A stretch of 64,000 bases of DNA from Mesostigma viride (Eukaryota; Streptophyta; Mesostigmatophyceae; Mesostigmatales; Mesostigmataceae), in NCBI GenBank assembly GCA_009746045.1, contig RPFO01000072.1, positions 827,620 through 891,619 of the forward strand, written 5' to 3'. Shown in pieces: positions 33,537 through 64,000 of this stretch. Both the position numbers and the translations under genes were made by a program. Numbering within the stretch: the first letter of the stretch is position 1; every line of letters starts with the position of its first letter. The notes below the pieces were generated by a model. The model was not told where the DNA came from. It saw only the letters and a list, made by a program, of their open reading frames with translations, and made no database searches.

Positions 33537-33934
33537 GACATGGGGTATCGCAGCAACCAATGGCAGGCTGTCACCACCACATTTCCATCATGCGGCCCCA
33601 AACGGAGTTACGCTCCCAGGTAGTCACATAAGCCACGATGTTGCACCGCTGGTGGGCAAGCGAGGAGGAGCCGGTCCTACATCAAAGGGCTCGTTACAAA
33701 ACGGAAGCGGGGCAAAACGCATGCCCCAATGCTACATAAGTGCATGCACTGTTATACAGACAAGAAGCTGCCATCCTTGCCCCCTTGGTTACACTTGCAT
33801 GCAGCCGTGGAAGAGATTGTAAATGAATGAGAGCCAGAATGGATCGATCACGTGGATCGCCTTCAACAGATTAAGTATCCTGATTTGGAAGGCATGCAAG
33901 TTGGGTCCTGCCCTCTGGCTGGAGGCGAGCGCAT

Positions 33935-34122
33935 TCTCTCCCTCCCTCCCTCCCTCCCTCCCTCCCTCCCTCCCTCCCTCCCTCCTCCCTCCCTCCCTCC
34001 CTCCCTCCTCCCTCCCTCCCTCCCTCCCTCCTCCCTCCCTCCCTCCCTCCCTCCCTCCCTCCCTCCCTCCCTCCCTCCCTCCCTCCCTCCCTCCTTCCTT
34101 CCCTCCCTCCCTCCCTCCCTCT
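33935..34122. repeat. (CCCT)n simple repeat with few interruptions
   Basis: About 190 bp of CCCT with occasional 3-bp slips (CCTCCCT). It lies within the intron between the last ankyrin exon and the kinase exon, 37 bases past the donor on the minus strand. Confidence 0.95.
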
Positions 34123-34159
34123 GGTGCCTCTGTTGGGATGGTCATGGCCGCGTGCTCAC

Positions 34160-38752: not shown

Positions 38753-39050
38753 CTGGCGACAGGGCCACCAGGGAATGGAAACATCAAAACCCGGTGCTCA
38801 CAGATCATGGACTAAGGATGGCAGTCCAAGCCATGCTGCATTATGCTGCTTTCGCTACCAATCACCGTCCAGTGTTACAGCATCCTCATCAACACAGGAG
38901 GCACATTAGACTATGAGCAGAATAGGTGCCGGTGGCGCATCAAACACAGGCTAGCAGGTCGCCAGCTTGTCAGAGAAGTTCTTCCAGCCAGCCAGCAATT
39001 GACGCAGCAGGCGAAAAGAGCGTGAGAAAGGGCACACGGTGCGACTGCAA
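38753..39050. other. Upstream flank of ankyrin exon 1 seen; no further exon found
   Basis: On the minus strand this should be intron or upstream sequence of the ankyrin gene. I saw no additional ankyrin motif. Confidence 0.25.
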
Positions 39051-39826
39051 GGGTGGATGGATGGATGGATGGATGGATGGATGGATGGATGGATGGATGG
39101 ATGGATGGATGGATGGATGGATGGATGGATGGATGGATGGATGGATGGATGGATGGATGGATGGATGGATGGATGGATGGATGGATGGATGGATGGATGG
39201 ATGGATGGATGGGTGGGTGGGTGGGCGGGCGGGCGGGCGGGCGGGCGGGCGGGGGCGGGCGGGCGGGCGGGCGGGCGGGCGGGCGGGCGGGCGGGCGGGC
39301 GGGCGGGCGGGCGGGCGGGCGGGCGGGCGGGCGGGCGGCGGGCGGGCGGCGGGCGGGCGGGAGGGCGGGCGGGCGGGCAAGCGGGCGGGCGGGCGGGCGG
39401 GCGGGCGGGCGGGCGGGCGGGCGGGCGGGCGGGCGGGCGGGCGGCGGGCGGGCGGGCGGGCGGGCGGGCGGGCGGGCGGGCGGGCGGGCGGGCGGGCGGG
39501 CGGGCGGGCGGGCGGGCGGCGGGCGGGCGGGCGGGCGGGCGGGCGGGCGGGCGGGCGGGCGGGCGGGCGGCGGGCGGGCGGCGGGCGGGCGGGCGGGCGG
39601 CGGGCGGGCGGCGGCGGGCGGGTGGGCGGGCGGGCGGTGGGCGGGTGGGTGGGTGGGTGGGTGGGTGGGTGGGTGGGTGGGTGGGTGGGTGGGTGGGTGG
39701 GTGGGTGGGTGGGTGGGTGGGTGGGTGGGTGGGTGGGTGGGTGGGTGGGTGGGTGGGTGGGTGGGTGGGTGGGTGGGTGGGTGGGTGGGTGGGTGGGTGG
39801 GTGGGAGAGTGGGTGGGTGGGTGGGG
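39051..39826. repeat. Tetranucleotide satellite in three blocks: (GGAT)n, (GGGC)n, (GGGT)n
   Basis: GGAT runs from about 39,053 to 39,210. It gives way to a GGGC block with regular single-base slips (39,223-39,645), then GGGT to about 39,823. All plus- and minus-strand frames stay open across it; I treat them as artefacts. The G-rich plus strand could form G-quadruplexes over about 600 bp. Confidence 0.97.
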
Positions 39827-42800: not shown

Positions 42801-43235
42801 GACAGCTTGAACACCTGCTTTGACCATCGCCACGTGCATACATGCACGCAATTCGCCAAAACCCCCTCTCGCGTCAGTCGTATTTCTCGTCTTTTTTTCA
42901 AGGGATTTGGGAGCCTTTGCGAAGCGTTTCCCAATTTGCGTCAAATTTGCTGCCGAGACTTAAAATTAATCGTGCCGCAAGTCTAACTGTCTGTTGTGTG
43001 GCACAGCTAAGCTGCGCCCCGTGTTAATATGCCATGGTAAGCAGGAAATCCATTTTGCACGATATTCTGCGTAAACTTGGGTTTTGCTAATGCCATAGGC
43101 AAGGCTAGCTAGTCGGGCAAGCTAGTGGGCAAGCTGAATCACGGTCGTCTGTAAGGTGATCCCCTTTGCTGCATTTACCGAGGGGGCCGATTCGTGTCAA
43201 GCAACCCGTGAATAGAAGTAACCTGTTGAACGGAA
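39827..43235. other. 3.4 kb without a confident gene; probable upstream region of two divergent genes
   Basis: It lies between the minus-strand ankyrin gene and the plus-strand oxidoreductase start. It contains mononucleotide runs (C-run about 41,360; 16-G run about 42,183) and direct copies of AGCCAGAGTACT at about 40,682 and 40,711. A 155-codon minus-strand frame at 41643-42110 could not be identified. The promoter of the oxidoreductase should lie near 42,900-43,230, but no TATA box is evident. Confidence 0.3.
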
Positions 43236-46200
43236 ATGACGGAGACAGAGACGCAAGCAGTGAAGGTGGTGGTAGTTGGTGGGAGCTTTGCTGGGCAGCG
43301 CGCCTACAACACTCTCATACGTGCTTCCCGTCGGGAAAACCTTAACCTCGATGTCACGCTGGTGGATTCCCGAGGCTTCTGGGAGTACACCCCTGGAATC
43401 CTGCGTTGCCTCGTGGAGCCAAAGCATGCGGTAAGTTTCCTGTTGTTGAGGTGGTCCGTAACGACATCTCTCGGGCTACCGTAAACGCAGTGCCAGGCAG
43501 CGCAACTACTTATCGTAGCAGCCTCCCCCCCAGCATATGCTTTCAACTTCATGACCAACTACGGGCCTGCCTTGAGCACAGTAGATAACGGACTGGTAAA
43601 CGATGCAGACTATGCTAGAGAAACAGAAGCCCAACAAACCCACCTTGCCATGTAACCCAGGGTCCCAGGCCCGTTTTTTCCATCATCGGCGTGTCTTCAT
43701 GCATTTGTGTCTTCATCCTCTGCTGCAACGCAGAAAAACATGATATTCTGCGACAGCGAGGAGGGTGACGGCCGCCAGCACAAGAACGTTACCGCACTCG
43801 CGTGTGGCATCCTGATTGCACCGCCCCCGTCACCAGGCACCGCTGCCGATGACAGCAGTCGTGCCCACAGAGGCAGCACCCCCGCGCCAGCTGAGAGGGG
43901 CCAAGGGGACATGCGAGTGGTTGCCACTGCCGTCACGCTGTCGGGCGGCCACCCCCCCCTCCCCTTTGACTACTGCATCCTGGCCACCGGCTCCCGCTAC
44001 GTGTCCCCTATCAAACCGGCCATGAGCATGCACGGTTGCGGCGGCCATGATAACGACAGCCAAGCAGCACCGGTGGACCCCAGCGACGCACCAGCAGCGA
44101 CAGCAATGCTGGCGCCACGGCCGGACATTGCGCTGGGGGCCGGGGATGCGACCACTCGTCGGCGCCACCTGCTAGAGTCGCGGATGGCGGAACTAGAGGA
44201 CGCGCACCGCACGCTGCAGCGGTGCCGGAGGTGGGGGCGAATGGGGGTGGGTGGGAGGGAAAGGAACCCAAAGGAAAAAAGGACCTTTGATGGCCATGGG
44301 CGATGGGAGCGCATCAGTGGGGGCCAGGCCAGGGTGGGCAGCGGAGGATTGGCAGGTGGCAGCTTGGCCACCGGACAGAAAGGGGAGGGATCTTGTCACC
44401 TTTTATTTTATTATCTATTCATTTACGTCTTTTGTGTGGTTGATTTATCAAGCTAGTATATCCCTGAGTGTAGGCCTGCGTCTGCGACGTGTGCCATGGC
44501 TTGCAGGAGGCAGCGTTGATATCCCCCTCGTGCAGGTGGTGTGTCATCCCCATCCCCCTACGTGCTGACGTGGCTGCAAATGTGTGGCTAAGAACATTAT
44601 CAAGGAGACAACCATCAGAGATCATCTATATATCGAGTGTAGAGTATTCCTCTAACCATCGATATACAAGGGCCCACGGTGCAAAACTGCTGCATGGTGG
44701 ATGCACAACGAACTTACCCTGTGATCCATAAGGGCACTCACTTGTTACATACAAGAAACGCAGCCAACCTGCGTTTCTAGTGCCTCTTGGCCCGGTGCCG
44801 TGCCCTGCCCTATTGCATGGCTTGGAAGAGAAATAAACGCCACTGGCTTGCTGGGGCCTGAATAGGTCATCCCGTGCCCTAGCAAGCCAAGCTGTTGTGT
44901 GCCTTGCCAACAGAATGGTCGTATTGTGCCCGGAAAAGCCGCGTACCGCCGCCTCGTTGCTGCCTGCGTATCTGTCACTGCCCATTGCGCTCGCCTTACA
45001 GCCCTCCCTCTCCTTCTACTGCTCTTTATGCCACCACCCGTCACTGCCACCCGTCCCCACCACCTTCCACCACCACCACCACCACCACCACCACCACCAC
45101 CACCACCACCACCACCACCACCACCACCACCACCACCACCACCACCACCACCACCACCACCACCACCACCACCACCACCACCACCACCACCACCACCACC
45201 ACCACCACCACCACCACCACCACCACCACCAGCGTCGCGATCATCGGTGGGGGCACGGTGGGCGTGGAGCTGGCGGCGGAGATCGTTGGGCGGTGGGGAC
45301 CAGCGAAGGCCGTCACGCTGATCACCTCGCACGACCGTACGTGGTGCCCCCCAGGTCGTTTCCCACCCCCCATGTGTCGCATCCCCAAATGGTTGGTGGG
45401 GGGGTTGCATCCCATCGCATGGCCTTACGCGCCTGCCTTTGTGTCCCACCCCTCTGCAGTCCTTCGTTCACCGGTGCCCATCGCTAGGAACTAACTCGTC
45501 CATCCTCAGCTGCTCTGGCCGTGCCGCCGCCTCCACACACAGTCACACAATCGCTGTCCGTCCCCAGTGGTCATCGCCACCCTCCTCTTTGATGATCAGC
45601 TTTTCTTTGATCGGTGTCTGTCCCCAGTGGTCATCGCCACCCTCCTCTTTGATGAGCACCCTGTTCTTTGGCTTCCATAATTATGAGCTTCTCATTACTC
45701 AAACTACTTGCGTGTGCCCTTAGCTGGCAAAGTGGCGATTGCCTGGCCATGACTAGCAATGCCTTGCTGAATACATATTCGTTTTCGATTCATCACCTCC
45801 TTTCGGCTCGCTTTTGCCACCTGGCTGCTCTTCACCTGCCTCCCGTCACGTCCCCCCCCCCCCCCTTCCCCCAGGCCTGCTGGAGCGGATGGGGCCCTCC
45901 GCGTCCAAACACGCGCTGACCTGGTTGGAGCGGCGCGGTGTGCGCGTGTGGACAGGCGACCGTGTGACTGAGTGCCGGCCCAGCTCCCCCGCTCACGTTG
46001 GCTCAAGTCGTGCGGTCGACCGTGACGGTTTCGGTAGCATCCGCCACGATGACAACCACCAGGGGGTCGTAGGTAGCGGCCGCAAGGACGGCCGGCTTGG
46101 CAATGCGGCCGGTGGTTTAGGGGGGAAGGAGCGGGACCACGACACGGCGGCGGATGACGCCACCCGCGCGCTGCTGGCATCGAATGGTGACAAGAGCTCT

Positions 46201-49200
46201 GGCCGCGGTGGCGGGGAAGAAGGGATGTCGGGGGCTGAGCAAGCGGGGTACACCCTCGAGACGTCGAGTGGGCGCCACCTGGACGTGGATGTGGTCTACC
46301 GGTAGGTACTCTACTCTCCTGCCCACAGTGCACCGGCAGGTAGTCGACTCTCCTGCCCATAGTGCAGCGGCAGGTACTCTACTCTCCTGCCCATAGTGCC
46401 CCGGCAGGTACTCGACTCTCCTGCCCATAGTGCACCGGCAGGTAGTCTACTCTCCTGCCCACAGTGCACCGGCAGGTACTCTACTCTCCTGCCCATAGTG
46501 CAGCGGCAGGTAGTCTACTCTCCTGCCCACAGTGCACCGGCAGGTAGTCGACTCTCCTGCCCACAGTGCCCCGGCAGGTAGTCGACTCTCCTGCCCATAG
46601 TGCACCGGCAGGTAGTCTACTCTCCTGCCCACAGTGCCCCGGCAGGTAGTCGACTCTCCTGCCCATAGTGCACCGGCAGGTAGTCTACTCTCCTGCCCAC
46701 AGTGCCCCGGCAGGTAGTCTACTCTCCTGCCCATAGTGCACCGGCAGGTAGTCGACTCTCCTGCCCACAGTGCACCGGCAGGTAGTCTACTCTCCTGCCC
46801 ATAGTGCAGCGGCAGGTACTCTACTCTCCTGCCCACAGTGCACCGGCAGGTACTCGACTCTCCTGCCCACAGTGCACCGGCAGGTAGTCGACTCTCCTGC
46901 CCACAGTGCACCGGCAGGTACTCTACTCTCCTGCCCACAGTGCACCGGCAGGTACTCTACTCTCCTGCCCATAGTGCACCGGCAGGTACTCGACTCTCCT
47001 GCCCACAGTGCACCGGCAGGTAGTCGACTCTCCTGCCCACAGTGCACCGGCAGGTACTCGACTCTCCTGCCCACAGTGCACCGGCAGGTAGTCTACTCTC
47101 CTGCCCATAGTGCACCGGCAGGTACTCTACTCTCCTGCCCACAGTGCAGCGGCAGGTACTCGACTCTCCTGCCCACAGTGCACCGGCAGGTAGTCTACTC
47201 TCCTGCCCACAGTGCACCGGCAGGTACTCTACTCTCCTGCCCACAGTGCACCGGCAGGTAGTCTACTCTCCTGCCCATAGTGCAGCGGCAGGTAGTCGAC
47301 TCTCCTGCCCACAGTGCACCGGCAGGTAGTCTACTCTCCTGCCCACAGTGCACCGGCAGGTACTCTACTCTCCTGCCCACAGTGCACCGGCAGGTACTCT
47401 ACTCTCCTGCCCACAGTGCACCGGCAGGTAGTCGACTCTCCTGCCCACAGTGCCCCGGCAGGTAGTCTACTCTCCTGCCCACAGTGCACCGGCAGGTAGT
47501 CTACTCTCCTGCCCATAGTGCACCGGCAGGTACTCTACTCTCCTGCCCACAGTGCACCGGCAGGTACTCGACTCTCCTGCCCACAGTGCACCGGCAGGTA
47601 CTCTACTCTCCTGCCCACAGTGCACCGGCAGGTAGTCGACTCTCCTGCCCATAGTGCACCGGCAGGTACTCGACTCTCCTGCCCACAGTGCACCGGCAGG
47701 TACTCGACTCTCCTGCCCACAGTGCACCGGCAGGTACTCTACTCTCCTGCCCACAGTGCACCGGCAGGTAGTCTACTCTCCTGCCCATAGTGCACCGGCA
47801 GGTAGTCTACTCTCCTGCCCACAGTGCACCGGCAGGTACTCTACTCTCCTGCCCATAGTGCACCGGCAGGTAGTCTACTCTCCTGCCCATAGTGCACCGG
47901 CAGGTACTCGACTCTCCTGCCCACAGTGCACCGGCAGGTAGTCTACTCTCCTGCCCACAGTGCACCGGCAGGTAGTCGACTCTCCTGCCCATAGTGCACC
48001 GGCAGGTACTCTACTCTCCTGCCCACAGTGCACCGGCAGGTACTCTACTCTCCTGCCCATAGTGCACCGGCAGGTAGTCTACTCTCCTGCCCATAGTGCA
48101 CCGGCAGGTAGTCTACTCTCCTGCCCACAGTGCACCGGCAGGTACTCTACTCTCCTGCCCATAGTGCACCGGCAGGTACTCTACTCTCCTGCCCACAGTG
48201 CAGCGGCAGGTAGTCTACTCTCCTGCCCATAGTGCAGCGGCAGGTACTCTACTCTCCTGCCCATAGTGCACCGGCAGGTACTCTACTCTCCTGCCCACAG
48301 TGCACCGGCAGGTAGTCTACTCTCCTGCCCACAGTGCACCGGCAGGTAGTCTACTCTCCTGCCCACAGTGCACCGGCAGGTACTCGACTCTCCTGCCCAT
48401 AGTGCACCGGCAGGTAGTCTACTCTCCTGCCCATAGTGCACCGGCAGGTAGTCGACTCTCCTGCCCACAGTGCACCGGCAGGTAGTCTACTCTCCTGCCC
48501 ATAGTGCACCGGCAGGTACTCTACTCTCCTGCCCACAGTGCAGCGGCAGGTACTCTACTCTCCTGCCCATAGTGCACCGGCAGGTACTCGACTCTCCTGC
48601 CCACAGTGCACCGGCAGGTACTCTACTCTCCTGCCCACAGTGCACCGGCAGGTACTCTACTCTCCTGCCCATAGTGCACCGGCAGGTACTCGACTCTCCT
48701 GCCCACAGTGCACCGGCAGGTAGTCTACTCTCCTGCCCACAGTGCACCGGCAGGTACTCTACTCTCCTGCCCATAGTGCACCGGCAGGTACTCTACTCTC
48801 CTGCCCATAGTGCACCGGCAGGTACTCGACTCTCCTGCCCATAGTGCAGCGGCAGGTACTCTACTCTCCTGCCCATAGTGCACCGGCAGGTACTCTACTC
48901 TCCTGCCCACAGTGCAGCGGCAGGTAGTCTACTCTCCTGCCCACAGTGCACCGGCAGGTAGTCGACTCTCCTGCCCATAGTGCACCGGCAGGTACTCTAC
49001 TCTCCTGCCCACAGTGCACCGGCAGGTACTCTACTCTCCTGCCCATAGTGCACCGGCAGGTAGTCTACTCTCCTGCCCATAGTGCACCGGCAGGTACTCT
49101 ACTCTCCTGCCCATAGTGCACCGGCAGGTACTCGACTCTCCTGCCCATAGTGCAGCGGCAGGTACTCTACTCTCCTGCCCATAGTGCACCGGCAGGTACT

Positions 49201-52200
49201 CTACTCTCCTGCCCACAGTGCAGCGGCAGGTAGTCTACTCTCCTGCCCACAGTGCACCGGCAGGTAGTCTACTCTCCTGCCCATAGTGCACCGGCAGGTA
49301 CTCTACTCTCCTGCCCACAGTGCACCGGCAGGTACTCGACTCTCCTGCCCATAGTGCAGCGGCAGGTACTCTACTCTCCTGCCCATAGTGCACCGGCAGG
49401 TAGTCGACTCTCCTGCCCACAGTGCACCGGCAGGTAGTCTACTCTCCTGCCCACAGTGCAGCGGCAGGTAGTCGACTCTCCTGCCCATAGTGCACCGGCA
49501 GGTACTCTACTCTCCTGCCCACAGTGCACCGGCAGGTAGTCTACTCTCCTGCCCATAGTGCACCGGCAGGTAGTCTACTCTCCTGCCCATAGTGCACCGG
49601 CAGGTAGTCTACTCTCCTGCCCACAGTGCACCGGCAGGTACTCTACTCTCCTGCCCATAGTGCACCGGCAGGTACTCTACTCTCCTGCCCACAGTGCAGC
49701 GGCAGGTAGTCTACTCTCCTGCCCATAGTGCAGCGGCAGGTACTCTACTCTCCTGCCCATAGTGCACCGGCAGGTACTCTACTCTCCTGCCCACAGTGCA
49801 CCGGCAGGTAGTCTACTCTCCTGCCCACAGTGCACCGGCAGGTACTCGACTCTCCTGCCCACAGTGCACCGGTAGGTAGTCTACTCTCCTGCCCACAGTG
49901 CACCGGCAGGTAGTCTACTCTCCTGCCCATAGTGCACCGGCAGGTAGTCGACTCTCCTGCCCACAGTGCACCGGCAGGTACTCGACTCTCCTGCCCATAG
50001 TGCACCGGCAGGTACTCTACTCTCCTGCCCACAGTGCACCGGCAGGTAGTCTACTCTCCTGCCCATAGTGCAGCGGCAGGTACTCTACTCTCCTGCCCAT
50101 AGTGCACCGGCAGGTACTCTACTCTCCTGCCCATAGTGCACCGGCAGGTAGTCGACTCTCCTGCCCACAGTGCACCGGCAGGTACTCTACTCTCCTGCCC
50201 ACAGTGCAGCGGCAGGTACTCTACTCTCCTGCCCATAGTGCACCGGCAGGTACTCTACTCTCCTGCCCACAGTGCACCGGCAGGTACTCTACTCTCCTGC
50301 CCATAGTGCACCGGCAGGTAGTCTACTCTCCTGCCCACAGTGCACCGGCAGGTAGTCTACTCTCCTGCCCACAGTGCACCGGCAGGTAGTCTACTCTCCT
50401 GCCCATAGTGCACCGGCAGGTACTCTACTCTCCTGCCCATAGTGCACCGGCAGGTAGTCTACTCTCCTGCCCATAGTGCACCGGCAGGTACTCTACTCTC
50501 CTGCCCACAGTGCAGCGGCAGGTAGTCTACTCTCCTGCCCACAGTGCACCGGCAGGTAGTCGACTCTCCTGCCCATAGTGCACCGGCAGGTACTCTACTC
50601 TCCTGCCCACAGTGCACCGGCAGGTACTCTACTCTCCTGCCCATAGTGCACCGGCAGGTAGTCTACTCTCCTGCCCATAGTGCACCGGCAGGTACTCTAC
50701 TCTCCTGCCCATAGTGCACCGGCAGGTACTCGACTCTCCTGCCCATAGTGCAGCGGCAGGTACTCTACTCTCCTGCCCATAGTGCACCGGCAGGTACTCT
50801 ACTCTCCTGCCCACAGTGCAGCGGCAGGTAGTCTACTCTCCTGCCCACAGTGCACCGGCAGGTAGTCGACTCTCCTGCCCATAGTGCACCGGCAGGTACT
50901 CTACTCTCCTGCCCACAGTGCACCGGCAGGTACTCGACTCTCCTGCCCATAGTGCAGCGGCAGGTACTCTACTCTCCTGCCCATAGTGCACCGGCAGGTA
51001 CTCTACTCTCCTGCCCACAGTGCACCGGCAGGTAGTCTACTCTCCTGCCCACAGTGCAGCGGCAGGTAGTCGACTCTCCTGCCCATAGTGCACCGGCAGG
51101 TACTCTACTCTCCTGCCCACAGTGCACCGGCAGGTACTCTACTCTCCTGCCCATAGTGCACCGGCAGGTAGTCTACTCTCCTGCCCATAGTGCACCGGCA
51201 GGTAGTCTACTCTCCTGCCCACAGTGCACCGGCAGGTACTCTACTCTCCTGCCCATAGTGCACCGGCAGGTACTCTACTCTCCTGCCCACAGTGCAGCGG
51301 CAGGTAGTCTACTCTCCTGCCCATAGTGCAGCGGCAGGTACTCTACTCTCCTGCCCATAGTGCACCGGCAGGTACTCTACTCTCCTGCCCACAGTGCACC
51401 GGCAGGTAGTCTACTCTCCTGCCCACAGTGCACCGGCAGGTACTCGACTCTCCTGCCCACAGTGCACCGGTAGGTAGTCTACTCTCCTGCCCACAGTGCA
51501 CCGGCAGGTAGTCTACTCTCCTGCCCATAGTGCACCGGCAGGTAGTCGACTCTCCTGCCCACAGTGCACCGGCAGGTACTCGACTCTCCTGCCCATAGTG
51601 CACCGGCAGGTACTCTACTCTCCTGCCCACAGTGCACCGGCAGGTAGTCTACTCTCCTGCCCATAGTGCAGCGGCAGGTACTCTACTCTCCTGCCCATAG
51701 TGCACCGGCAGGTACTCTACTCTCCTGCCCATAGTGCACCGGCAGGTAGTCGACTCTCCTGCCCACAGTGCACCGGCAGGTACTCTACTCTCCTGCCCAC
51801 AGTGCAGCGGCAGGTACTCTACTCTCCTGCCCATAGTGCACCGGCAGGTACTCTACTCTCCTGCCCACAGTGCACCGGCAGGTACTCTACTCTCCTGCCC
51901 ATAGTGCACCGGCAGGTAGTCTACTCTCCTGCCCACAGTGCACCGGCAGGTAGTCTACTCTCCTGCCCACAGTGCACCGGCAGGTAGTCTACTCTCCTGC
52001 CCATAGTGCACCGGCAGGTAGTCGACTCTCCTGCCCATAGTGCACCGGCAGGTAGTCTACTCTCCTGCCCATAGTGCACCGGCAGGTACTCGACTCTCCT
52101 GCCCACAGTGCACCGGCAGGTAGTCTACTCTCCTGCCCACAGTGCACCGGCAGGTAGTCTACTCTCCTGCCCACAGTGCACCGGCAGGTAGTCTACTCTC

Positions 52201-55200
52201 CTGCCCATAGTGCACCGGCAGGTAGTCTACTCTCCTGCCCATAGTGCACCGGCAGGTACTCTACTCTCCTGCCCACAGTGCACCGGCAGGTACTCTACTC
52301 TCCTGCCCACAGTGCAGCGGCAGGTAGTCGACTCTCCTGCCCATAGTGCACCGGCAGGTACTCTACTCTCCTGCCCATAGTGCACCGGCAGGTAGTCTAC
52401 TCTCCTGCCCATAGTGCACCGGCAGGTACTCTACTCTCCTGCCCACAGTGCAGCGGCAGGTACTCGACTCTCCTGCCCACAGTGCACCGGTAGGTAGTCT
52501 ACTCTCCTGCCCACAGTGCACCGGCAGGTAGTCTACTCTCCTGCCCATAGTGCACCGGCAGGTACTCTACTCTCCTGCCCATAGTGCACCGGCAGGTAGT
52601 CGACTCTCCTGCCCATAGTGCACCGGCAGGTACTCGACTCTCCTGCCCATAGTGCACCGGCAGGTAGTCGACTCTCCTGCCCATAGTGCACCGGCAGGTA
52701 GTCTACTCTCCTGCCCATAGTGCACCGGCAGGTACTCTACTCTCCTGCCCATAGTGCACCGGCAGGTAGTCGACTCTCCTGCCCACAGTGCCCCGGCAGG
52801 TAGTCTACTCTCCTGCCCATAGTGCACCGGCAGGTAGTCGACTCTCCTGCCCATAGTGCACCGGCAGGTAGTCTACTCTCCTGCCCATAGTGCACCGGCA
52901 GGTAGTCGACTCTCCTGCCCATAGTGCACCGGCAGGTAGTCGACTCTCCTGCCCATAGTGCACCGGCAGGTACTCTACTCTCCTGCCCACAGTGCACCGG
53001 CAGGTAATCTACTCTCCTGCCCACAGTGCACCGGCAGGTAGTCGACTCTCCTGCCCATAGTGCACCGGCAGGTACTCGACTCTCCTGCCCATAGTGCACC
53101 GGCAGGTAGTCGACTCTCCTGCCCACAGTGCCCCGGCAGGTAGTCTACTCTCCTGCCCATAGTGCACCGGCAGGTAGTCGACTCTCCTGCCCATAGTGCA
53201 CCGGCAGGTAATCTACTCTCCTGCCCATAGTGCACCGGCAGGTACTCTACTCTCCTGCCCATAGTGCACCGGCAGGTACTCTACTCTCCTGCCCATAGTG
53301 CACCGGCAGGTACTCTACTCTCCTGCCCATAGTGCACCGGCAGGTACTCTACTCTCCTGCCCATAGTGCACCGGCAGGTAGTCTACTCTCCTGCCCACAG
53401 TGCCCCGGCAGGTAGTCTACTCTCCTGCCCACAGTGCACCGGCAGGTACTCTACTCTCCTGCCCATAGTGCACCGGCAGGTAGTCTACTCTCCTGCCCAT
53501 AGTGCACCGGCAGGTAGTCTACTCTCCTGCCCACAGTGCACCGGCAGGTACTCTACTCTCCTGCCCATAGTGCACCGGCAGGTACTCGACTCTCCTGCCC
53601 ATAGTGCACCGGCAGGTAGTCGACTCTCCTGCCCATAGTGCACCGGCAGGTAGTCTACTCTCCTGCCCACAGTGCACCGGCAGGTAGTCTACTCTCCTGC
53701 CCATAGTGCACCGGCAGGTACTCGACTCTCCTGCCCACAGTGCACCGGCAGGTAGTCGACTCTCCTGCCCACAGTGCAGCGGCAGGTACTCGACTCTCCT
53801 GCCCATAGTGCACCGGCAGGTACTCTACTCTCCTGCCCACAGTGCACCGGCAGGTACTCTACTCTCCTGCCCACAGTGCACCGGCAGGTACTCGACTCTC
53901 CTGCCCACAGTGCACCGGCAGGTAGTCTACTCTCCTGCCCACAGTGCACCGGCAGGTACTCTACTCTCCTGCCCATAGTGCACCGGCAGGTACTCGACTC
54001 TCCTGCCCACAGTGCAGCGGCAGGTAGTCGACTCTCCTGCCCATAGTGCACCGGCAGGTAGTCTACTCTCCTGCCCACAGTGCAGCGGCAGGTACTCTAC
54101 TCTCCTGCCCACAGTGCACCGGCAGGTAGTCGACTCTCCTGCCCATAGTGCACCGGCAGGTACTCGACTCTCCTGCCCACAGTGCACCGGCAGGTACTCT
54201 ACTCTCCTGCCCACAGTGCACCGGCAGGTAGTCGACTCTCCTGCCCATAGTGCACCGGCAGGTACTCTACTCTCCTGCCCATAGTGCACCGGCAGGTAGT
54301 CTACTCTCCTGCCCACAGTGCACCGGCAGGTAGTCTACTCTCCTGCCCACAGTGCACCGGCAGGTAGTCTACTCTCCTGCCCACAGTGCACCGGCAGGTA
54401 GTCTACTCTCCTGCCCATAGTGCACCGGCAGGTAGTCGACTCTCCTGCCCACAGTGCACCGGCAGGTAGTCTACTCTCCTGCCCATAGTGCACCGGCAGG
54501 TACTCGACTCTCCTGCCCACAGTGCACCGGCAGGTACTCTACTCTCCTGCCCATAGTGCACCGGCAGGTACTCTACTCTCCTGCCCATAGTGCACCGGCA
54601 GGTACTCTACTCTCCTGCCCATAGTGCACCGGCAGGTACTCTACTCTCCTGCCCATAGTGCACCGGCAGGTACTCTACTCTCCTGCCCACAGTGCACCGG
54701 CAGGTACTCTACTCTCCTGCCCATAGTGCACCGGCAGGTACTCTACTCTCCTGCCCATAGTGCACCGGCAGGTACTCTACTCTCCTGCCCATAGTGCACC
54801 GGCAGGTACTCGACTCTCCTGCCCACAGTGCACCGGCAGGTAGTCGACTCTCCTGCCCACAGTGCAGCGGCAGGTACTCTACTCTCCTGCCCATAGTGCA
54901 GCGGCAGGTACTCTACTCTCCTGCCCATAGTGCACCGGCAGGTACTCGACTCTCCTGCCCATAGTGCACCGGCAGGTAGTCTACTCTCCTGCCCACAGTG
55001 CAGCGGCAGGTAGTCGACTCTCCTGCCCATAGTGCACCGGCAGGTACTCGACTCTCCTGCCCACAGTGCACCGGCAGGTAGTCGACTCTCCTGCCCATAG
55101 TGCAGCGGCAGGTACTCTACTCTCCTGCCCATAGTGCACCGGCAGGTACTCGACTCTCCTGCCCATAGTGCACCGGCAGGTAGTCTACTCTCCTGCCCAT

Positions 55201-58200
55201 AGTGCACCGGCAGGTAGTCTACTCTCCTGCCCATAGTGCACCGGCAGGTAGTCTACTCTCCTGCCCATAGTGCACCGGCAGGTACTCTACTCTCCTGCCC
55301 ACAGTGCACCGGCAGGTAGTCTACTCTCCTGCCCATAGTGCACCGGCAGGTACTCTACTCTCCTGCCCATAGTGCACCGGCAGGTAGTCTACTCTCCTGC
55401 CCATAGTGCACCGGCAGGTACTCTACTCTCCTGCCCACAGTGCACCGGCAGGTAGTCTACTCTCCTGCCCATAGTGCACCGGCAGGTACTCTACTCTCCT
55501 GCCCATAGTGCACCGGCAGGTACTCTACTCTCCTGCCCATAGTGCACCGGCAGGTACTCTACTCTCCTGCCCACAGTGCACCGGCAGGTACTCTACTCTC
55601 CTGCCCATAGTGCACCGGCAGGTACTCTACTCTCCTGCCCACAGTGCACCGGCAGGTACTCTACTCTCCTGCCCATAGTGCACCGGTAGGTACTCGACTC
55701 TCCTGCCCATAGTGCACCGGCAGGTACTCTACTCTCCTGCCCACAGTGCACCGGCAGGTACTCGACTCTCCTGCCCACAGTGCACCGGCAGGTAGTCTAC
55801 TCTCCTGCCCACAGTGCACCGGCAGGTACTCGACTCTCCTGCCCACAGTGCACCGGCAGGTAGTCTACTCTCCTGCCCATAGTGCACCGGCAGGTACTCT
55901 ACTCTCCTGCCCATAGTGCACCGGCAGGTACTCGACTCTCCTGCCCACAGTGCACCGGCAGGTAGTCTACTCTCCTGCCCATAGTGCACCGGCAGGTACT
56001 CTACTCTCCTGCCCATAGTGCACCGGCAGGTACTCGACTCTCCTGCCCACAGTGCACCGGCAGGTACTCGACTCTCCTGCCCACAGTGCACCGGCAGGTA
56101 GTCTACTCTCCTGCCCACAGTGCACCGGCAGGTAGTCTACTCTCCTGCCCACAGTGCACCGGCAGGTAGTCGACTCTCCTGCCCACAGTGCACCGGCAGG
56201 TACTCTACTCTCCTGCCCATAGTGCACCGGCAGGTAGTCGACTCTCCTGCCCACAGTGCAGCGGCAGGTACTCGACTCTCCTGCCCACAGTGCACCGGCA
56301 GGTAGTCTACTCTCCTGCCCACAGTGCACCGGCAGGTAGTCGACTCTCCTGCCCACAGTGCACCGGCAGGTAGTCTACTCTCCTGCCCACAGTGCAGCGG
56401 CAGGTAGTCGACTCTCCTGCCCACAGTGCACCGGCAGGTACTCGACTCTCCTGCCCACAGTGCACCGGCAGGTAGTCGACTCTCCTGCCCATAGTGCAGC
56501 GGCAGGTACTCTACTCTCCTGCCCATAGTGCACCGGCAGGTACTCGACTCTCCTGCCCATAGTGCACCGGCAGGTAGTCTACTCTCCTGCCCATAGTGCA
56601 CCGGCAGGTAGTCTACTCTCCTGCCCATAGTGCACCGGCAGGTAGTCTACTCTCCTGCCCATAGTGCACCGGCAGGTACTCTACTCTCCTGCCCACAGTG
56701 CAGCGGCAGGTAGTCTACTCTCCTGCCCATAGTGCACCGGCAGGTACTCTACTCTCCTGCCCATAGTGCACCGGCAGGTAGTCTACTCTCCTGCCCATAG
56801 TGCACCGGCAGGTACTCTACTCTCCTGCCCACAGTGCACCGGCAGGTAGTCTACTCTCCTGCCCATAGTGCACCGGCAGGTACTCTACTCTCCTGCCCAT
56901 AGTGCACCGGCAGGTAGTCGACTCTCCTGCCCATAGTGCACCGGCAGGTACTCTACTCTCCTGCCCACAGTGCACCGGCAGGTACTCTACTCTCCTGCCC
57001 ATAGTGCACCGGCAGGTACTCTACTCTCCTGCCCACAGTGCACCGGCAGGTACTCTACTCTCCTGCCCATAGTGCACCGGTAGGTACTCGACTCTCCTGC
57101 CCATAGTGCACCGGCAGGTACTCTACTCTCCTGCCCACAGTGCACCGGCAGGTACTCGACTCTCCTGCCCACAGTGCACCGGCAGGTAGTCTACTCTCCT
57201 GCCCACAGTGCACCGGCAGGTACTCGACTCTCCTGCCCACAGTGCACCGGCAGGTAGTCTACTCTCCTGCCCATAGTGCACCGGCAGGTACTCTACTCTC
57301 CTGCCCATAGTGCACCGGCAGGTACTCGACTCTCCTGCCCACAGTGCACCGGCAGGTAGTCTACTCTCCTGCCCATAGTGCACCGGCAGGTACTCTACTC
57401 TCCTGCCCATAGTGCACCGGCAGGTACTCGACTCTCCTGCCCACAGTGCACCGGCAGGTACTCGACTCTCCTGCCCACAGTGCACCGGCAGGTAGTCTAC
57501 TCTCCTGCCCACAGTGCACCGGCAGGTAGTCTACTCTCCTGCCCACAGTGCACCGGCAGGTAGTCGACTCTCCTGCCCACAGTGCACCGGCAGGTACTCT
57601 ACTCTCCTGCCCATAGTGCACCGGCAGGTAGTCGACTCTCCTGCCCACAGTGCAGCGGCAGGTACTCGACTCTCCTGCCCACAGTGCACCGGCAGGTAGT
57701 CTACTCTCCTGCCCACAGTGCACCGGCAGGTAGTCGACTCTCCTGCCCACAGTGCACCGGCAGGTAGTCTACTCTCCTGCCCATAGTGCACCGGCAGGTA
57801 CTCTACTCTCCTGCCCACAGTGCACCGGCAGGTACTCTACTCTCCTGCCCATAGTGCACCGGCAGGTACTCGACTCTCCTGCCCATAGTGCACCGGCAGG
57901 TACTCTACTCTCCTGCCCATAGTGCACCGGCAGGTAGTCTACTCTCCTGCCCACAGTGCACCGGCAGGTACTCGACTCTCCTGCCCATAGTGCAGCGGCA
58001 GGTACTCGACTCTCCTGCCCATAGTGCACCGGCAGGTACTCGACTCTCCTGCCCATAGTGCACCGGCAGGTAGTCTACTCTCCTGCCCATAGTGCACCGG
58101 CAGGTACTCTACTCTCCTGCCCATAGTGCACCGGCAGGTAGTCTACTCTCCTGCCCATAGTGCACCGGCAGGTACTCTACTCTCCTGCCCACAGTGCACC

Positions 58201-61200
58201 GGCAGGTAGTCTACTCTCCTGCCCATAGTGCACCGGCAGGTAGTCTACTCTCCTGCCCATAGTGCACCGGCAGGTACTCTAATCTCCTGCCCATAGTGCA
58301 CCGGTAGGTACTCGACTCTCCTGCCCATAGTGCACCGGCAGGTACTCGACTCTCCTGCCCACAGTGCACCGGCAGGTAGTCTACTCTCCTGCCCATAGTG
58401 CACCGGCAGGTACTCTACTCTCCTGCCCATAGTGCACCGGCAGGTACTCTACTCTCCTGCCCATAGTGCACCGGCAGGTACTCTACTCTCCTGCCCGGTG
58501 CGGTGCGCATGCGCGTGCTGTACGCTATTGGCCACACTCCACCGGTGGGTGTTCTACGGACTGCCGGATGGCGTACGTTGCTTACGCGCACGCGATCTCC
58601 TGGTTGAATAGTTGGGGCTGGTGAGGGGGGTCTAGTAGGATTCATAGGGGGGCGCTGGTGAGGGGGGTCTAGTAGGATTCATAGGGGTGCTGGTGAGGGG
58701 GGTCTAGTAGGATTCATAGGGGTGCTGGTGAGGGGGGTCTAGTAGGATTCATAGGGGGGCGCTGGTGAGGGGGTCTAGTAGGATTCATAGGGGCGCTGGT
58801 GAGGGGGTCTAGTAGGATTCATAGGGGTGCTGGTGAGGGGGTCTAGTAGGATTCATAGGGGTGCTGGTGAGGGGGGTCTAGTAGGATTCATAGGGGGGCG
58901 CTGGTGAGGGGGGTCTAGTAGGATTCATAGGGGGGCGCTGGTGAGGGGGGTCTAGTAGGATTCATAGGGGGGCGCTGGTGAGGGGGGTCTAGTAGGATTC
59001 ATAGGGGGGCGCTGGTGAGGGGGGTCTAGTAGGATTCATAGGGGGGCGCTGGTGAGGGGGGTCTAGTAGGATTCATAGGGGTGCTGGTGAGGGGGGTCTA
59101 GTAGGATTCATAGGGGGGGCTGGTGGGAGTAGCGGGGAGTGTAGTAGCTGTCAAGAGTAGTGGGGTATACTGTTACGAATAATTAGCTTATTCGCCTAGC
59201 TAATTCATTCATGGCATTACTAGCCCTATGTGGTATGCCGCGCCAACTTTTCTTCTAGGCGCCGACACTTGTGGTCCTGTGCACCTATGTGTGTTGTTGG
59301 TTGTGAGTTGAGACTTGCACCTATGTGTGTTGTTGGTTGTGAGTTGAGACTGTTCCACGGCGGTTCGTGAGTAGCCACCTACGTACCTTGGACACAAGCG
59401 ATGCACTTGTGCACAACACTCTACTCTCGCGTTTTCTAGTGTCTCGGGTCCAGCCATGGATGCCGCGACCTGCGGGTTCCATCATGAGCTGTACCTGTGC
59501 TATCATGTAATAAAGTGGCATTGTTAATTATTGGAAGCGGTGGCAGAAAGCGCGATGTTGTCCGCCAGTAGATGAACGCAGCGATGGCCGTGTGGGCCAT
59601 GATGGCCGTGTGGGCCATGATGGCTGCGTGGGCCATGAAGGCTGCGTGGGCCATGATGGCTGCGTGGGCCATGAAGGCTGCGTGGGCCATGATGGCCGTG
59701 TGGGCCATGATGGCCGTGTGGGCCTTGATGGCCGTGTGGGCCATGATGGCCGCGTGGGCCATGATGCGCCCCTCGGGAGCACGTGCATTTTGGGGGGTTG
59801 TGCGTTGCAAGCAGGTGCCCGCGGTCCATTCACGCCCTTGTGTAGGAATGGCCAGCTGTCCGCGGTCGCACACATGTTTGTGTCCTACTTTGAATACTTC
59901 ATGTCGGTGCATGAATGCCGCTTGTCTGGTTTCGGTGACTGGACGCGTAGGCTTGCTTGCCCGCTGTCGTGAAATCATGCGTATGATGTTCAGATTTCAG
60001 GCGTCTTCTTTCCCGTGTGACGTTGCTTGCACCCCCACAACTGCATCCCCACCATGTGCAGCTGCGTGGGCTTTGCCCCCAACGGAGGGGTGGCTGGGGA
60101 TATCCCTGGGGCAGTGGACAGCAGGTGGGTTCTTCCTGGCCAATGCCTGTTCATGCAAGGATGGGCTTTTTTTTCTTGCTCGGTGATGTCAATATATCAT
60201 GAGGCAGCGGCGGCATGGCGTGTTATCGCCAGTGTAGGTGTAGGAATGGGCCTGCCCTTGCTCAGGCCAGATCCGCAGCGCCTTGTTGTGTGCTGCCAAC
60301 ACATCCCCCCAGCTGCTGCCCACCGCGGTAGACCACGCACGCGCACAGTTCGCAGGGCACATGGCCAAGGGAGGGTTGACCTTTGGGAGCCTCGCGTACC
60401 TCTGGCCCTGTTGCCTTACCGGCTTCTAGTTACCCATAGCATCTCAACGGTAGTCGGTCTCAAGCGATTCCTTGGTGGAGTCATTCTAACCTTTTCCATG
60501 CGTTGCCTGGGCCGGCGTTGTCTCGAGTATGAATGGAACGTTGTCTTGCGCTGATCATCGCTTCGTATTGACTATGCTTCACACGGAGCTTTTATTACTT
60601 TGACCCTAGTGCAGTTTAAAGAGTTGCCTGTTTCCATATTTGTAAAAGTAGGGCACACCTGTGCTCATGCCCCCCCCCCCCACACACGTTTTAGATTCTC
60701 AGGTTTAAGATCATGAGACTCTGGATTTGACCTCTACCTGTAGTATAATTGTATTAGAATGTAGTAGAACTTAGTAGAATCGAATCACAGTAGTAAGATT
60801 CTTTAAGATCGTGAGCCCTGGATTGGTCGGACCCCAGTCTTAAACGTGTGTGGGGGGGTGTAGTGTCATAATCAGTTTCCAGGTAAGGAAGGGGGTCATG
60901 GCTCCATGGCAACCTAGTTTTTTGCGTCAAGTGTTTTGTGTGGAGTGTTTTGCGCAGATCGATGGGGCTCCCCGCGTCTCACCATCCGGCAGCACTGTAC
61001 CTGGGTCCCTGCCACACTGTTCTTTGTACGTCCCAGGGGCTTCCTCCGGGTTGACCGGCACCTACGTGTGCAAGCAACGGCCAATGTCTTCGCGGCAGGG
61101 GACTGCATCGACATGTGAGTTAGAACTCGGCAGACCGTGGGAGGGAAGGCCAGAGGGGAGGAAGGAAGAATGGTAATTACACAGCCGATGACGCAGTGCT

Positions 61201-63768
61201 TGTTTTCGCTCCAAAACGGAAAGTCGTTAAGGTCTTTTGTGAAACGAAACAAGGGCATGGGTGCATGTTGTCTGACATGTGATCGTCATCCCACGCTTTT
61301 GCTCTTGACACCTTGCGAGTAGAGCAGGCAGTCACTTTCACTTTTTGCAAGTTGGTTGCCTTTGGTTGGCAGTTGAGCATCCGCAGATGACAGCATGCTC
61401 CTGCTCGCACACGGCCGCCAGCAGCAGGAAGAGTGTCTCGGTTTGTTATGGAAAAAAAACGGTTGGTCGCAGCCCTTCACTCTTTCCCCTCGGGTGCTGC
61501 CATCACAGCCAATGACGAGCCGCCACCTGGCACCTGCCACGGCATCTCATCGCACACACTGCCCCTCCCTGTCTCCGCATGCGAGTTACCTATCTCTGTG
61601 CACGGCAGCCGCAGGCAGGTGGTTGCTTTCTGGCGTCACGGAATGACATCCAGGCTGCTCCTGTACCTTGTGTAAGACCCCACCCATTCCCTCTCCTTCG
61701 TTCCACTTGCTGGCCCGGACTAGCTTTGGAATATGGGTGTTGTAACGTTCCCCGCCTGCCTCTGCCCTCCTCATATCGCGCCACCTGGCAGCCCCGACGA
61801 GAAGACGGCGCTGACGGCGGAGCTGAGCGGCACCCTTGCGGCGCGTAACGTTCTGCGATGCCTCGCCGCGCGCAGGGAGGGGGGTAGTGCGGCACTGCTG
61901 ACATTCCCGCAGGTACGACCCTCCTTGCATCTGCGGTGCCAGTCTCACCTCAATGCCACCATTCACGCACATGTGCGGTGCCTCAACATGGATGACGTGC
62001 TCTGTGTAATGCGGCACATGCGGAGGCTTGCCTTTTACAGTGCAGACGCTACTCGGACAGTACAGCGGTCAGCCTCTCACATTCAGTGCAGACGCTACTT
62101 GGACAGTACAGCGGTCAGCCTCTCACATACAGTGCAGGCGCTACTTGGACAGTACAGCGGTCAGCCTCTCACATACAGTGCAGGCGCTACTTGGACAGTA
62201 CAGCGGTCAGCCTCTCACATACAGTGCAGGCGCTACTTGGACAGTACAGCGGTCAGCCTCTCACATACAGTGCAGGCGCTACTTGGACAGTACAGCGGTC
62301 AGCCTCTCACGCTGCATGGTGTGCGCTGATGCCGTCGTGTGGCTCACTGTGTCAGCACGTCCGCTTTTGGAAGAGGCATGCGTCACCAGCTTGCATGGAG
62401 GCATTTGCATGGAATGGCGATCCCCTTGAAGCATGTGTGGCGTGCTTTGGTGTAATTATACAATTTGGTCACTACGGGATAGGCGCTTTGTCTGAGGGCC
62501 TTGCGTTGATGTGTCTCTGATACGGAGCGGCGGCAGCTTTCCTGATCACCCCCACTGCTGGCATACGTTGAAGCCCGATGATGCCTTCGGCTGGTCCCCG
62601 CATGATCATGCCGATGTTGTGCTGGCATACGTTTCCCACCCGTTGTTGTCCCTCGGTGAGGACACCCTTCCCTTTCCCCTGCCACGGCCACGGTCATGCC
62701 ACGGTGGGTCATGCCGCGGCCCCACCACCCTGCCCACCAATGTGTGCGCGACCAAAGCACGTTCACCATCCAACCCACCCACTCGCCTGCCCACCCGCCC
62801 GCCCGCCCGCACGCCCGTCCACTCACCCACCCCACACACGCGCTAACGTGCGCGCCACTACCTGACCATCCACACTGCAGGACATCTGCAACGGCCGGTC
62901 GACTGTGCCCATCGTGACCGTGGTCAGCCTGTACAAGGTGCGTGACTCATGGCAGGTGTAGGTGCATCATCGTGGTGGGTGGGATCTCGCCATCTGGCCA
63001 CGTGCCTCTGTCCCAGTTGCATTGTCTGCATGTCGAATCGCTGTAATGGGGATGACACCATGACAGCACATCCAGTTGCCGCAAGGGGGCCGTAAGATGG
63101 CTGCGCCCATGCTTGCTTTCCCACCGCGCGCTATCTTGATGGCTGCGCCCGTGCTTCCTTACCCATGTTTGGGCGATCACCGCGCGCGATCTTGATGGCA
63201 TTGGCATCACGATCAGTGCTCGTTCCATGCCCTGTCTCGGGATCGCATGGCATCACAGGTACCGGTGTTCCTGGCATCCCAGGGATGCTTGTCATGTAAC
63301 GACATCGCTGGCTTTGCGGGCGGCCTTGCGCCTAGGAATGCCAGCAGCTGCGAGGCTCCGCGTGATGCGTGTAGCTCCAACCCTGGTGCCTCATCATGGT
63401 GCCCACACGGGGTTCTGACTCGATGTATCCAAGGTTTGTACCTGGCTTGTCTCACCTGTGTTTGTATGCTGTCTATGTAACATGGTTACCTGGATCGTCC
63501 CCCCCCCCGCCGCACAGCACGAGGCGATCATGCAGTTCAACCGCCTGGTCATCAGCGGCCGCCTCCCCGCGCTCTTCAAGTGGGTCATCGAGACGCTCGT
63601 GGTACGCCCCCGCCCCACACATGTGCTGGCATTGGTGGCATTGGTGGCATTGTGGCATTTGTTGCATTCGCGGCATTTGTGGCACGCTCTTTTTTTTTTC
63701 TTTTTCCTTACTACCAGTTGTCGAGACGCTCGCGGTACATTCAAAGGATTCTGGCATTTGTGGCATGA
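43236..63768 (+). CDS. AIF/FSP1-like FAD-dependent NAD(P)H oxidoreductase, 10 predicted exons
   Basis: Predicted exons: 43236-43430, 43734-44230, 45233-45336, 45875-46301, 58478-58544, 60993-61114, 61792-61912, 62881-62937, 63518-63601, 63718-63768. Phases match at every join and sum to 574 residues. Signatures in order: FAD Rossmann motif VVVVGGSFAGQRAYN; FWEYTPGILRCLVEP; FDYCILATGSRY; second (NAD(P)H) Rossmann SVAIIGGGTVGVELAAEIVG; RLLERMGPSAS; LYAIGHTPP; RVQATANVFAAGDCID (FAD-binding GD); EKTALTAELSGTLAARNVL; QFNRLVISGRLPALFKWVIE. This matches AIF-M2/FSP1 and type-II NADH dehydrogenase-like flavoproteins that pass electrons from NAD(P)H to quinones; substrate and location are not predictable here. 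Oddities: a low-complexity insert at the end of exon 2, a roughly 90-residue insert in exon 4, and intron 4 being a 12.2-kb satellite. Exons 5 and 10 are the least certain. More sequence may be missing between exons 1 and 2. Confidence 0.8.
45067..45232. repeat. (CCA)n trinucleotide array ending at a splice acceptor
   Basis: About 55 CCA triplets run without interruption; the last one supplies the CAG acceptor of exon 3 (ACCAG|C at 45232/45233). It replaces a normal pyrimidine tract with a CCA tract. Confidence 0.95.
45842..45874 (+). other. Polypyrimidine tract and acceptor of exon 4
   Basis: A C-run and CTTCCCCC lead into CAG|GCCTGC. The acceptor completes the Arg codon split after C at 45336, in frame with RLLERMGPSAS. 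Confidence 0.7.
46302..58496. repeat. 34-bp tandem array, 358 units, filling one intron
   Basis: From the first GGTACT motif (46306 anchor) to the last (58478) is 12,172 bp, exactly 358 x 34, so there is no net insertion or deletion. Each unit contains a donor-like CAGGTAGT or CAGGTACT and an acceptor-like CTCTCCTGCCCACAG (or CATAG). Variation is almost confined to four positions of the unit (C/G at 5, T/G at 8, C/T at 22, C/G at 29, counting from GGTA); rare variants are CCCCGG, CCGGTAGG and GTAATC. The first unit overlaps the end of exon 4 (TACCG|GTAGGTACT). The many 61-163 residue frames on both strands are read-through of the unit, not genes. Confidence 0.98.
58611..59130. repeat. 34-37-bp tandem repeat, about 14 copies (intron 5)
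   Basis: The core is GCTGGTGAGGGGGGTCTAG, then TAGGATTCATAGGGG. Unit length varies with the G-run and with a GC or T joint. It starts 66 bases after the exon-5 donor. GGTGAGG in each unit is again a good 5' splice-site match. Confidence 0.95.
59275..59350. repeat. 38-bp direct repeat, 2 copies
   Basis: TGCACCTATGTGTGTTGTTG plus GTTGTGAGTTGAGACT occurs twice in tandem in intron 5. Confidence 0.9.
59583..59766. repeat. 18-bp tandem repeat, about 10 copies
   Basis: The unit GGCCGTGTGGGCCATGAT has variants GGCTGCGTGGGCCATGAA. All three frames stay open on both strands because 18 is a multiple of three; I do not consider the frames genes. Intron 5 of the oxidoreductase gene. Confidence 0.92.
62035..62311. 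repeat. 46-bp tandem repeat, 6 copies (intron 7)
   Basis: The unit contains ACAGTGCAGGCGCTACTTGG and ACAGTACAGCGGTCAGCC followed by TCTCACAT. Pyrimidine-rich CCTCTCACATACAG|TGCAG resembles a splice acceptor and shares ACAGTGCA with the 34-bp unit of intron 4. Confidence 0.93.
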
Positions 63769-64000
63769 GTGGCACTGCGGTGCACCTGTTGGGCGGCTTG
63801 CAGGTACGGCTTTTGTGGGTAACGACTATTGGTTGGCTGTCTCTTTTTCTTCTAAGTAAGGACTAGCCGTGTGTAAATAAGGACAAGAGAGTTGTGGGCC
63901 ACCATAGGACTTTCATAGGACTTTCTGCGGCCTGCTGTGACGGGCGGCTGCCCTTGTGCACACGTGGCAAGATGCAGCCCTGCGTATCTGCCTATTGCCC
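63769..64000. other. Downstream flank of the oxidoreductase gene
   Basis: It follows the predicted stop codon (TGA 63766-63768). The direct repeat CATAGGACTTTC occurs twice near 63,903-63,926. Nothing else is recognised before the window ends. Confidence 0.3.

Follow-up and report, generated by a model that had tools for sequence, protein, structure and literature searches.

A 34-bp minisatellite overlapping the 5′ splice site of a long intron in an FSP1-like gene of Mesostigma viride

The gene Mv01733 of the streptophyte alga Mesostigma viride lies within the 64,000-nucleotide stretch that we analysed (assembly GCA_009746045.1, contig RPFO01000072.1, positions 827,620 to 891,619 of the forward strand; hereafter called the "window", whose own numbering is used below), and its fourth intron is filled largely by a 34-bp tandem array that begins inside the preceding exon. 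The joined exons match the JGI Mesvir1 protein Mv01733-RA.1 at 100% identity over 100% of the query, and the model RA.2 at 100% identity over 91%. The closest PDB relatives are structures of ferroptosis suppressor protein 1 (FSP1, or AIFM2), and the Pfam match is to Pyr_redox_2 (PF07992), a family broader than FSP1. Judged by these similarities, Mv01733 is an FSP1/AIFM2-like NAD(P)H oxidoreductase.

The exact spliced alignment of both models places the donor of intron 4 between positions 46301 and 46302 and its acceptor between positions 60061 and 60062. The resulting intron is 13,760 nt long, as compared to a mean intron length of 1,142 bp in Table 1 of the genome publication (PMC6947507). 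The original prediction, made from the letters of this DNA, had placed exon 5 at 58496–58545, directly after the array. In both annotated models, however, the coding sequence resumes at 60062–60124, and Cys409 and Gly411 at the start of this exon are invariant in our alignment of nine proteins (Mv01733, listed as P0001, and eight of its 113 database hits), and thus common to all eight homologues. The spliced alignment and these two residues exclude 58496–58545 as an exon of these models. On the other side of the junction, Tyr407 is a tyrosine in eight of the nine aligned proteins. If the donor of exon 4 is not used, an in-frame TAG follows at 46303–46305; use of an inner donor would therefore give the reading TAC CGG TAG and an immediate stop.

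Tandem Repeats Finder (TRF) reports the 34-bp repeat as a single array at 46298–58496, with a period of 34, 358.8 copies, 94% matches and 0% indels. The anchor CTCCTGCCC occurs 359 times, and all 358 spacings between its occurrences are exactly 34, which confirms, for the sequence as assembled, the 358 tandem copies of the original prediction. The array accounts for 88.6% of intron 4, and four kinds of tandem array together fill 94% of it (Table 1). Every one of the 358 whole units contains AG/GT (here and below, a slash marks an actual or potential splice junction), and every one also contains the acceptor-like CAYAG (169 CACAG and 189 CATAG), as had been read from the sequence at the outset. 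Among the 34 unit positions, 27 are invariant, while positions 1, 2, 6, 12, 15 and 29 each vary in at least seven copies. Position 17 varies in a single copy, two copies carry a third base at position 12, and 26 unit types result. Hypervariable minisatellites are GC-rich with strand asymmetry; this array has a GC content of about 0.61 and a GC skew of about −0.24. Its head-to-tail unit of 34 bp, repeated 358.8 times, lies within the range of 15–100 bp given for minisatellite units (PMC3618361).

The unit is confined to this array. Its core pattern matches 357 times in the window, where none is expected, and likewise 357 times in the whole 439.9-Mb assembly (2,243 contigs), always on the same strand, so that no core match exists elsewhere in the assembly. 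Across the assembly, exon 4 is matched over its full length once; of its 197 matches, the others among those listed are array units. Introner elements are dispersed copies that create introns genome-wide; no such dispersal was seen among exact core matches (357 genome-wide and 357 in the window), a comparison that did not search for diverged copies. Open frames of up to 169 amino acids run through the array on both strands; we interpret these as the repeat being read through in changing frames, and no domain search was made on them. Rfam gave no match at the gathering score, and no tRNA was found.

Table 1. Positions of the features discussed (window numbering, unless a contig is named)
Feature	Position	Strand	Evidence
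Exon 1 of Mv01733	43236..43430	+	exact spliced match, Pfam Pyr_redox_2, PDB FSP1
Exon 2 of Mv01733	43734..44230	+	spliced alignment
(CCA)58 array, 3′ end of intron 2, up to the exon 3 acceptor	45057..45231	+	TRF, spliced alignment
Exon 3 of Mv01733	45233..45336	+	spliced alignment
Exon 4 of Mv01733, ends TACCG/GTAGGT	45875..46301	+	spliced alignment
34-bp minisatellite, first 4 bases inside exon 4	46298..58496	+	TRF, unit table
Unit 1, with the genuine donor CCG/GTAGGT	46298..46331	+	unit table, spliced alignment, donor scores
Intron 4 of Mv01733, 13,760 nt, GT-AG	46302..60061	+	spliced alignment
Block duplication, units 77–121 and 124–168, 42/45 units identical	48882..52009	+	unit comparison
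Block duplication, units 258–296 and 299–337, 37/39 units identical	55036..57755	+	unit comparison
37-bp minisatellite, 14 copies, intron 4	58617..59125	+	TRF
18-bp minisatellite, 10 copies, intron 4	59583..59766	+	TRF
True exon 5 of Mv01733 (CVGFAPNGGVAGDIPGAVDS)	60062..60124	+	spliced alignment, conserved residues
Exon 6 of Mv01733	61037..61114	+	spliced alignment
Exon 7 of Mv01733	61792..61912	+	spliced alignment
Exon 8 of Mv01733	62881..62937	+	spliced alignment
Exon 9 of Mv01733 per RA.1; conserved part ~63518–63601	63518..63856	+	spliced alignment, protein alignment
OGT array, 43.6 copies, units mostly 40 or 44 bp	C1215:892647-894471	minus	TRF

How is the array positioned relative to the splice junction? 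It starts at 46298 and exon 4 ends at 46301, so that the first unit overlaps the junction TACCG/GTAGGTACT. The array thereby includes ACCG, with which exon 4 ends and which codes for part of the Tyr-Arg pair before the junction. The overlap claimed by the original prediction is confirmed in this way, and its suggestion that the array grew from the 5′ splice site gains support, since the unit holds four coding bases of the exon and the tyrosine is shared by most of the aligned proteins. A coding origin of ACCG appears more likely than its derivation from the array. Contact between arrays and junctions was also counted over the introns of two gene models, in which 16 arrays could be placed: two touch a junction, namely the 34-bp array and the (CCA)58 array preceding exon 3, against 0.26 expected. 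For this count we omitted the arrays at 32515–32565 (in an exon), 43103–43135 (between genes), 45031–45077 (overlapping the CCA array) and 63627–63684 (outside the introns used), and merged the three overlapping rows at 39051–39825, the two at 58617–59125 and the two at 62774–62832 into one array each.

The copies of the donor differ in strength. The other 12 introns in these two gene models supplied our donor matrix, and for the scores of the true donors each was left out in turn. The genuine donor CCG/GTAGGT scores 9.37, within the range of 3.2–9.57 for the true donors. The AG/GT present in every unit lies in another register, 4 nt downstream of the genuine donor, and these 358 decoys score 1.75–5.47 with a median of 5.47, the AG/GTACTC form being 3.9 bits below the genuine donor. 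A guanine at position +5 is found in 12 of 13 true donors and in none of the 358 decoys. The predicted duplex with U1 is −10.4 kcal/mol for the genuine donor and −7.4 kcal/mol on average for the decoys. At the position of the genuine GT, 351 of the 358 units carry GC, and GT is retained in unit 1 and in units 106, 153, 183, 277, 318 and 354. The array thus mostly repeats a damaged splice signal, together with six intact inner copies. The original prediction, which described copies of the intron's own splice signals and hundreds of candidate donors and acceptors, holds as to the many donor-like and acceptor-like sites and the AG/GT of all units, whereas the genuine donor itself recurs in only 7 of 358 units. 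The scoring it had proposed puts the decoys below the genuine donor by their median, apart from the six inner copies that equal it.

We propose that the minisatellite was born at the 5′ splice site, is tolerated there, and is spliced out with the intron from unit 1, a reading to which we give a probability of about 0.77. As four coding bases from the end of exon 4 belong to the array, it would most naturally have started when a 34-bp stretch straddling the 5′ splice site, made up of these four bases and the first 30 of intron 4, was tandemly duplicated. Recombination or slippage would then have enlarged this seed to some 358 copies, with the exon-proximal copy retaining the working donor CCG/GTAGGT. 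Almost all of the later copies would descend from a variant in which GT had changed to GC, leaving only the weaker AG/GTACTC. In the cell, the spliceosome most likely pairs the donor of unit 1 with the acceptor at 60061, and the array, which probably serves no function, would be removed with the intron.

Several observations weigh against this reading. Units 1 and 2 disagree at four of the six common variable sites, and the similarity of neighbouring units thus gives no demonstration that growth began at unit 1. Chance may account in part for the contact with a junction, the probability being 0.026 for at least two contacts and 0.23 for at least one. The six inner units with the exact genuine donor score 9.37 each, so the decoys are not all weak. 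Moreover, 3 of the 13 true donors, when left out, score below the decoy median, which stands high among background GTs: only 5.3% of 6,115 reach it. As for the acceptor-like sites, CACAG outscores 8 of the 13 true acceptors left out in turn, and CATAG 3 of 13; an explanation by weak decoy acceptors was dropped on these scores.

A rival possibility is that the array is put to use. As in human IFI6, inner units might serve as donors for part of the transcripts and extend exon 4, an arrangement suggested by the six exact donor copies, by the rank of the 358 decoys among the best 5% or so of GTs, and by the account of IFI6 in PMC4526556, where two downstream repeat units act as donors. Every such extension would nevertheless meet the in-frame TAG at 46303 and truncate the protein, both annotated isoforms employ unit 1, and the decoys lack the +5 guanine, so we regard this use as unlikely. 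Alternatively, the intron might be removed stepwise through AG/GT, by ratchet points, 11-nt microexons or dual-specific sites, as the original prediction had considered. AG/GT in every unit, a 13.8-kb intron set against the published mean (PMC6947507), the high-scoring acceptor-like sites, and the tandem AGGT dual-specific sites described as used in UBC (PMC10809524) would all fit. We scored this possibility with a juxtaposed 3′ and 5′ matrix modelled on the scheme given in PMC6110457, using 12–13 introns and the fly cut-off of 0.8. With a matrix that included the true pairs, 12 of 13 of which then reach 0.8, the 357 AG/GT sites of the array score 0.604–0.711, none at 0.8; among the other AGGT sites in the window, 3 of 430 reach 0.8 and 26% match or exceed the array median. 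With the true acceptor–donor pairs left out in turn, the array maximum is 0.73 at most, below 11 of the 13 pairs, and 12 of the 13 lie above the array median. Yet only 5 of the 13 left-out pairs reach 0.8 themselves (median 0.76). A further AG stands 11 nt upstream of each AG/GT, between it and the pyrimidine tract, and the 12.2 kb of the array contain three T-N-A motifs and one yTnAy, though 4 of the 13 true introns also have no yTnAy near the acceptor. Such small matrices lower the probability of ratchet points, and stepwise use of the units, which these results do not support, appears quite improbable.

Two further explanations were tried for the inertness of the decoys. The scarcity of branch points was set aside as a cause of inert acceptors, for which support is weak given the four true introns just mentioned and the fact that, among random 34-mers set in tandem, 21% would lack T-N-A; in random 53-mers, T-N-A occurs in 88% and yTnAy in 43%. 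The RNA might instead mask itself, GGCAGG pairing with CCTGCC in each unit and burying its own decoy donor. The consensus does hold this perfect 6-bp inverted repeat, and, compared with 600 mononucleotide shuffles, a four-unit stretch has a more stable fold than 98.7% of them; but the predicted accessibility of the decoys (median 0.0049) is close to that of random GT sites (0.0058), the genuine donor is even less accessible (0.00016), and 20% of random 34-mers from the window fold as well or better, with 8% having such a stem. Supported by neither the accessibility nor the random 34-mers, self-masking was rejected, and we hold it to be very unlikely. A different alternative concerns the interior of the array, which may be largely a product of assembly, that is, real but shorter, longer or reordered, and this would be compatible with birth at the splice site and removal with the intron. 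Variable sites 12, 15 and 29 are in linkage equilibrium (chi2 4.32, df 4, p 0.365, n = 274 units, with the second block copies removed; two of the three sites are 3 bp apart), and all seven base differences between the block copies fall on sites that are already variable. New mutation alone does not give this combination. Very short conversion tracts would give it; misplaced reads and polishing, by blurring the consensus, would do likewise. In favour of the latter, the 358 units contain only three substitutions below 1% frequency and no indel, and the published assembly is described as built from PacBio subreads with an N50 of 11.2 kb, shorter than the intron, followed by short-read polishing (PMC6947507). 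On the other hand, minor alleles at 2–12% survive, whereas full blurring should erase them. The unit order is near random, with a weak excess at lags 1, 3 and 4 (z 2.1–2.7), but long near-identical blocks are present, and repeated runs of at least four units number 9, against 3.2 in shuffles, the longest being 8 units against at most 6. Furthermore, the array is anchored at both edges in sequence that is not part of the repeat, and the full-length match of exon 4 is a single one. We consider an assembly origin of the interior to have slightly less than an even chance; the edges of the array and the unit consensus look safe, while the copy number and the order are doubtful.

Does amplification across a 5′ splice site occur elsewhere in this genome? 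A genome-wide search for three copies of AGGTAAGT at 14–44 nt spacing gave 192 matches, against 154 for the reversed control. These are overlapping matches within arrays and not loci, and donor arrays are therefore not clearly enriched in this repeat-rich genome. The matches listed represent at least eight loci, one of which (L025, on contig C1215) starts at a real 5′ splice site. It lies in an O-GlcNAc transferase (OGT) gene, Mv07924-RA.1 (P0115), whose closest PDB relatives are OGT. The exon whose product ends in YPLPATLIK has its last base at 894447 and is followed by GTAAGT; GVLEIHAERIA opens the next exon at 892251. The protein model connects the two by using the first donor, across an intron of 2,195 nt. 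The array begins 25 nt within the exon and presents 43 donors AAG/GTAAGT in succession, including the genuine one, each preceded by 25 nt of exon-like sequence that is identical to the exon in 35 of 43 cases. Its decoys equal the genuine donor. This second seeded array indicates that seeding at 5′ splice sites recurs, and, together with the FSP1-like array, that such amplification has occurred at least twice in this genome.

For six other loci we considered flanks, open frames and motif scores only. None of the eight reaches 0.8 as a recursive site, and three (L026, L027 and L028) have medians of 0.752–0.775, similar to those of true pairs left out, and stay candidates for recursive sites. Mesostigma viride may tentatively be credited with a recurrent class of introns, in which a 5′ splice site is amplified into a long array and the exon-proximal copy is reliably taken, possibly with nested AG/GT splicing, although we judge this to be rather doubtful. 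If true, the FSP1-like array would represent a late stage, in which the donor-competing copies have been replaced by the GC variant. At L026 (1308–1586 of contig C1106), about ten tandem 28-bp units CTTGTCCTTCCGCTGCTGCAAG/GTAAGT, eight of them with the exact AGGTAAGT, combine an acceptor-like site with a strong donor; they follow soon after an apparent donor and are followed by a long CAC/CCG tract.

Tandem arrays are abundant in the window, for which TRF lists 40 partly overlapping rows. In Mv01733 itself, the (CCA)58 array occupies the final 175 nt of intron 2 ahead of the acceptor CAG/CGTCGCG and contains neither AG nor T-N-A. The closest upstream T-N-A adenine is 189 nt from the exon 3 acceptor, with no other AG between them, and the branch point of intron 2 may accordingly lie unusually far upstream. 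Towards the 3′ end of the gene, RA.2 continues from exon 7 through intron 7 (61792–62326), so that a 46-bp minisatellite at 62036–62310 is annotated as part of its C-terminus, while RA.1 runs beyond the conserved end of exon 9 up to 63856. The neighbouring gene Mv01732 (30045–40531, minus strand) encodes ankyrin repeats, a protein kinase and an RZ-type zinc finger in one protein, in which HECT is also matched, narrowly exceeding the cut-off. Arrays occur in the introns of Mv01732 as well (29-bp, 56-bp, 8-bp and 4-bp units). At 5609–9469 on the plus strand, an open frame of 1,287 codons has RVT_2 and rve matches below their cut-offs and is perhaps a Copia-like retrotransposon.

Short engineered duplications are the usual means of studying how the spliceosome chooses one 5′ splice site among several equal ones. 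Here, tens to hundreds of copies stand naturally beside the genuine site; most of those in the FSP1-like gene are disarmed, whereas those in the OGT gene equal it. They provide a natural test of whether the exon-adjacent position decides the choice. They also suggest a route by which introns lengthen, namely duplication across the edge of an exon followed by expansion. The two arrays are alike in being seeded at a 5′ splice site with a unit that takes in exon bases, and the OGT array differs in its 43 intact donors, the longer exon end that it copied, its unit length and its much shorter intron.

How does the FSP1-like array compare with known systems? The minisatellite of human IFI6 (6-16, G1P3) reportedly overlaps an exon–intron boundary, and the present array likewise meets one (46298, with the exon end at 46301). 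It has been described as providing multiple splice donors (Turri, Cuin and Porter 1995), and the present array resembles it in offering one transcript repeated sites of donor type. They differ in copy number and taxon, and also in that downstream units serve as donors in IFI6, according to PMC4526556, whereas most of the copies here are candidate donors that score below the genuine one. For UBC and VCX3A, tandem repeats with dual-specific splice sites have been described (Duan et al. 2024, PMC10809524), in a study reporting that such introns are enriched in tandem-repeat genes and arguing that AGGT repeats can drive gene evolution. AGGT is present in each repeat unit of UBC, as in all 358 units here; however, the UBC repeats are described as coding, with an intron that is a multiple of the unit, whereas our array is intronic and 13,760/34 gives 404.7. 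With the recursive sites and ratchet points of the fly (PMC6110457, PMC8605326), the array shares a long intron with AG/GT motifs, but its joint acceptor–donor score falls short of most true pairs. The statement of the original prediction that no intron of this design had been described consequently fails for the class as a whole, in view of the multi-donor minisatellite of IFI6 and the tandem AGGT sites of UBC as these sources present them. Among the titles listed in our searches of the open-licence literature, none concerned this locus or splice-site-seeded arrays in algae. The class is thus known in principle, while its scale and its recurrence in an alga are new so far as these searches go. 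Within it, the Mv01733 array is an intronic, mostly disarmed variant, far longer than the other arrays seen here.

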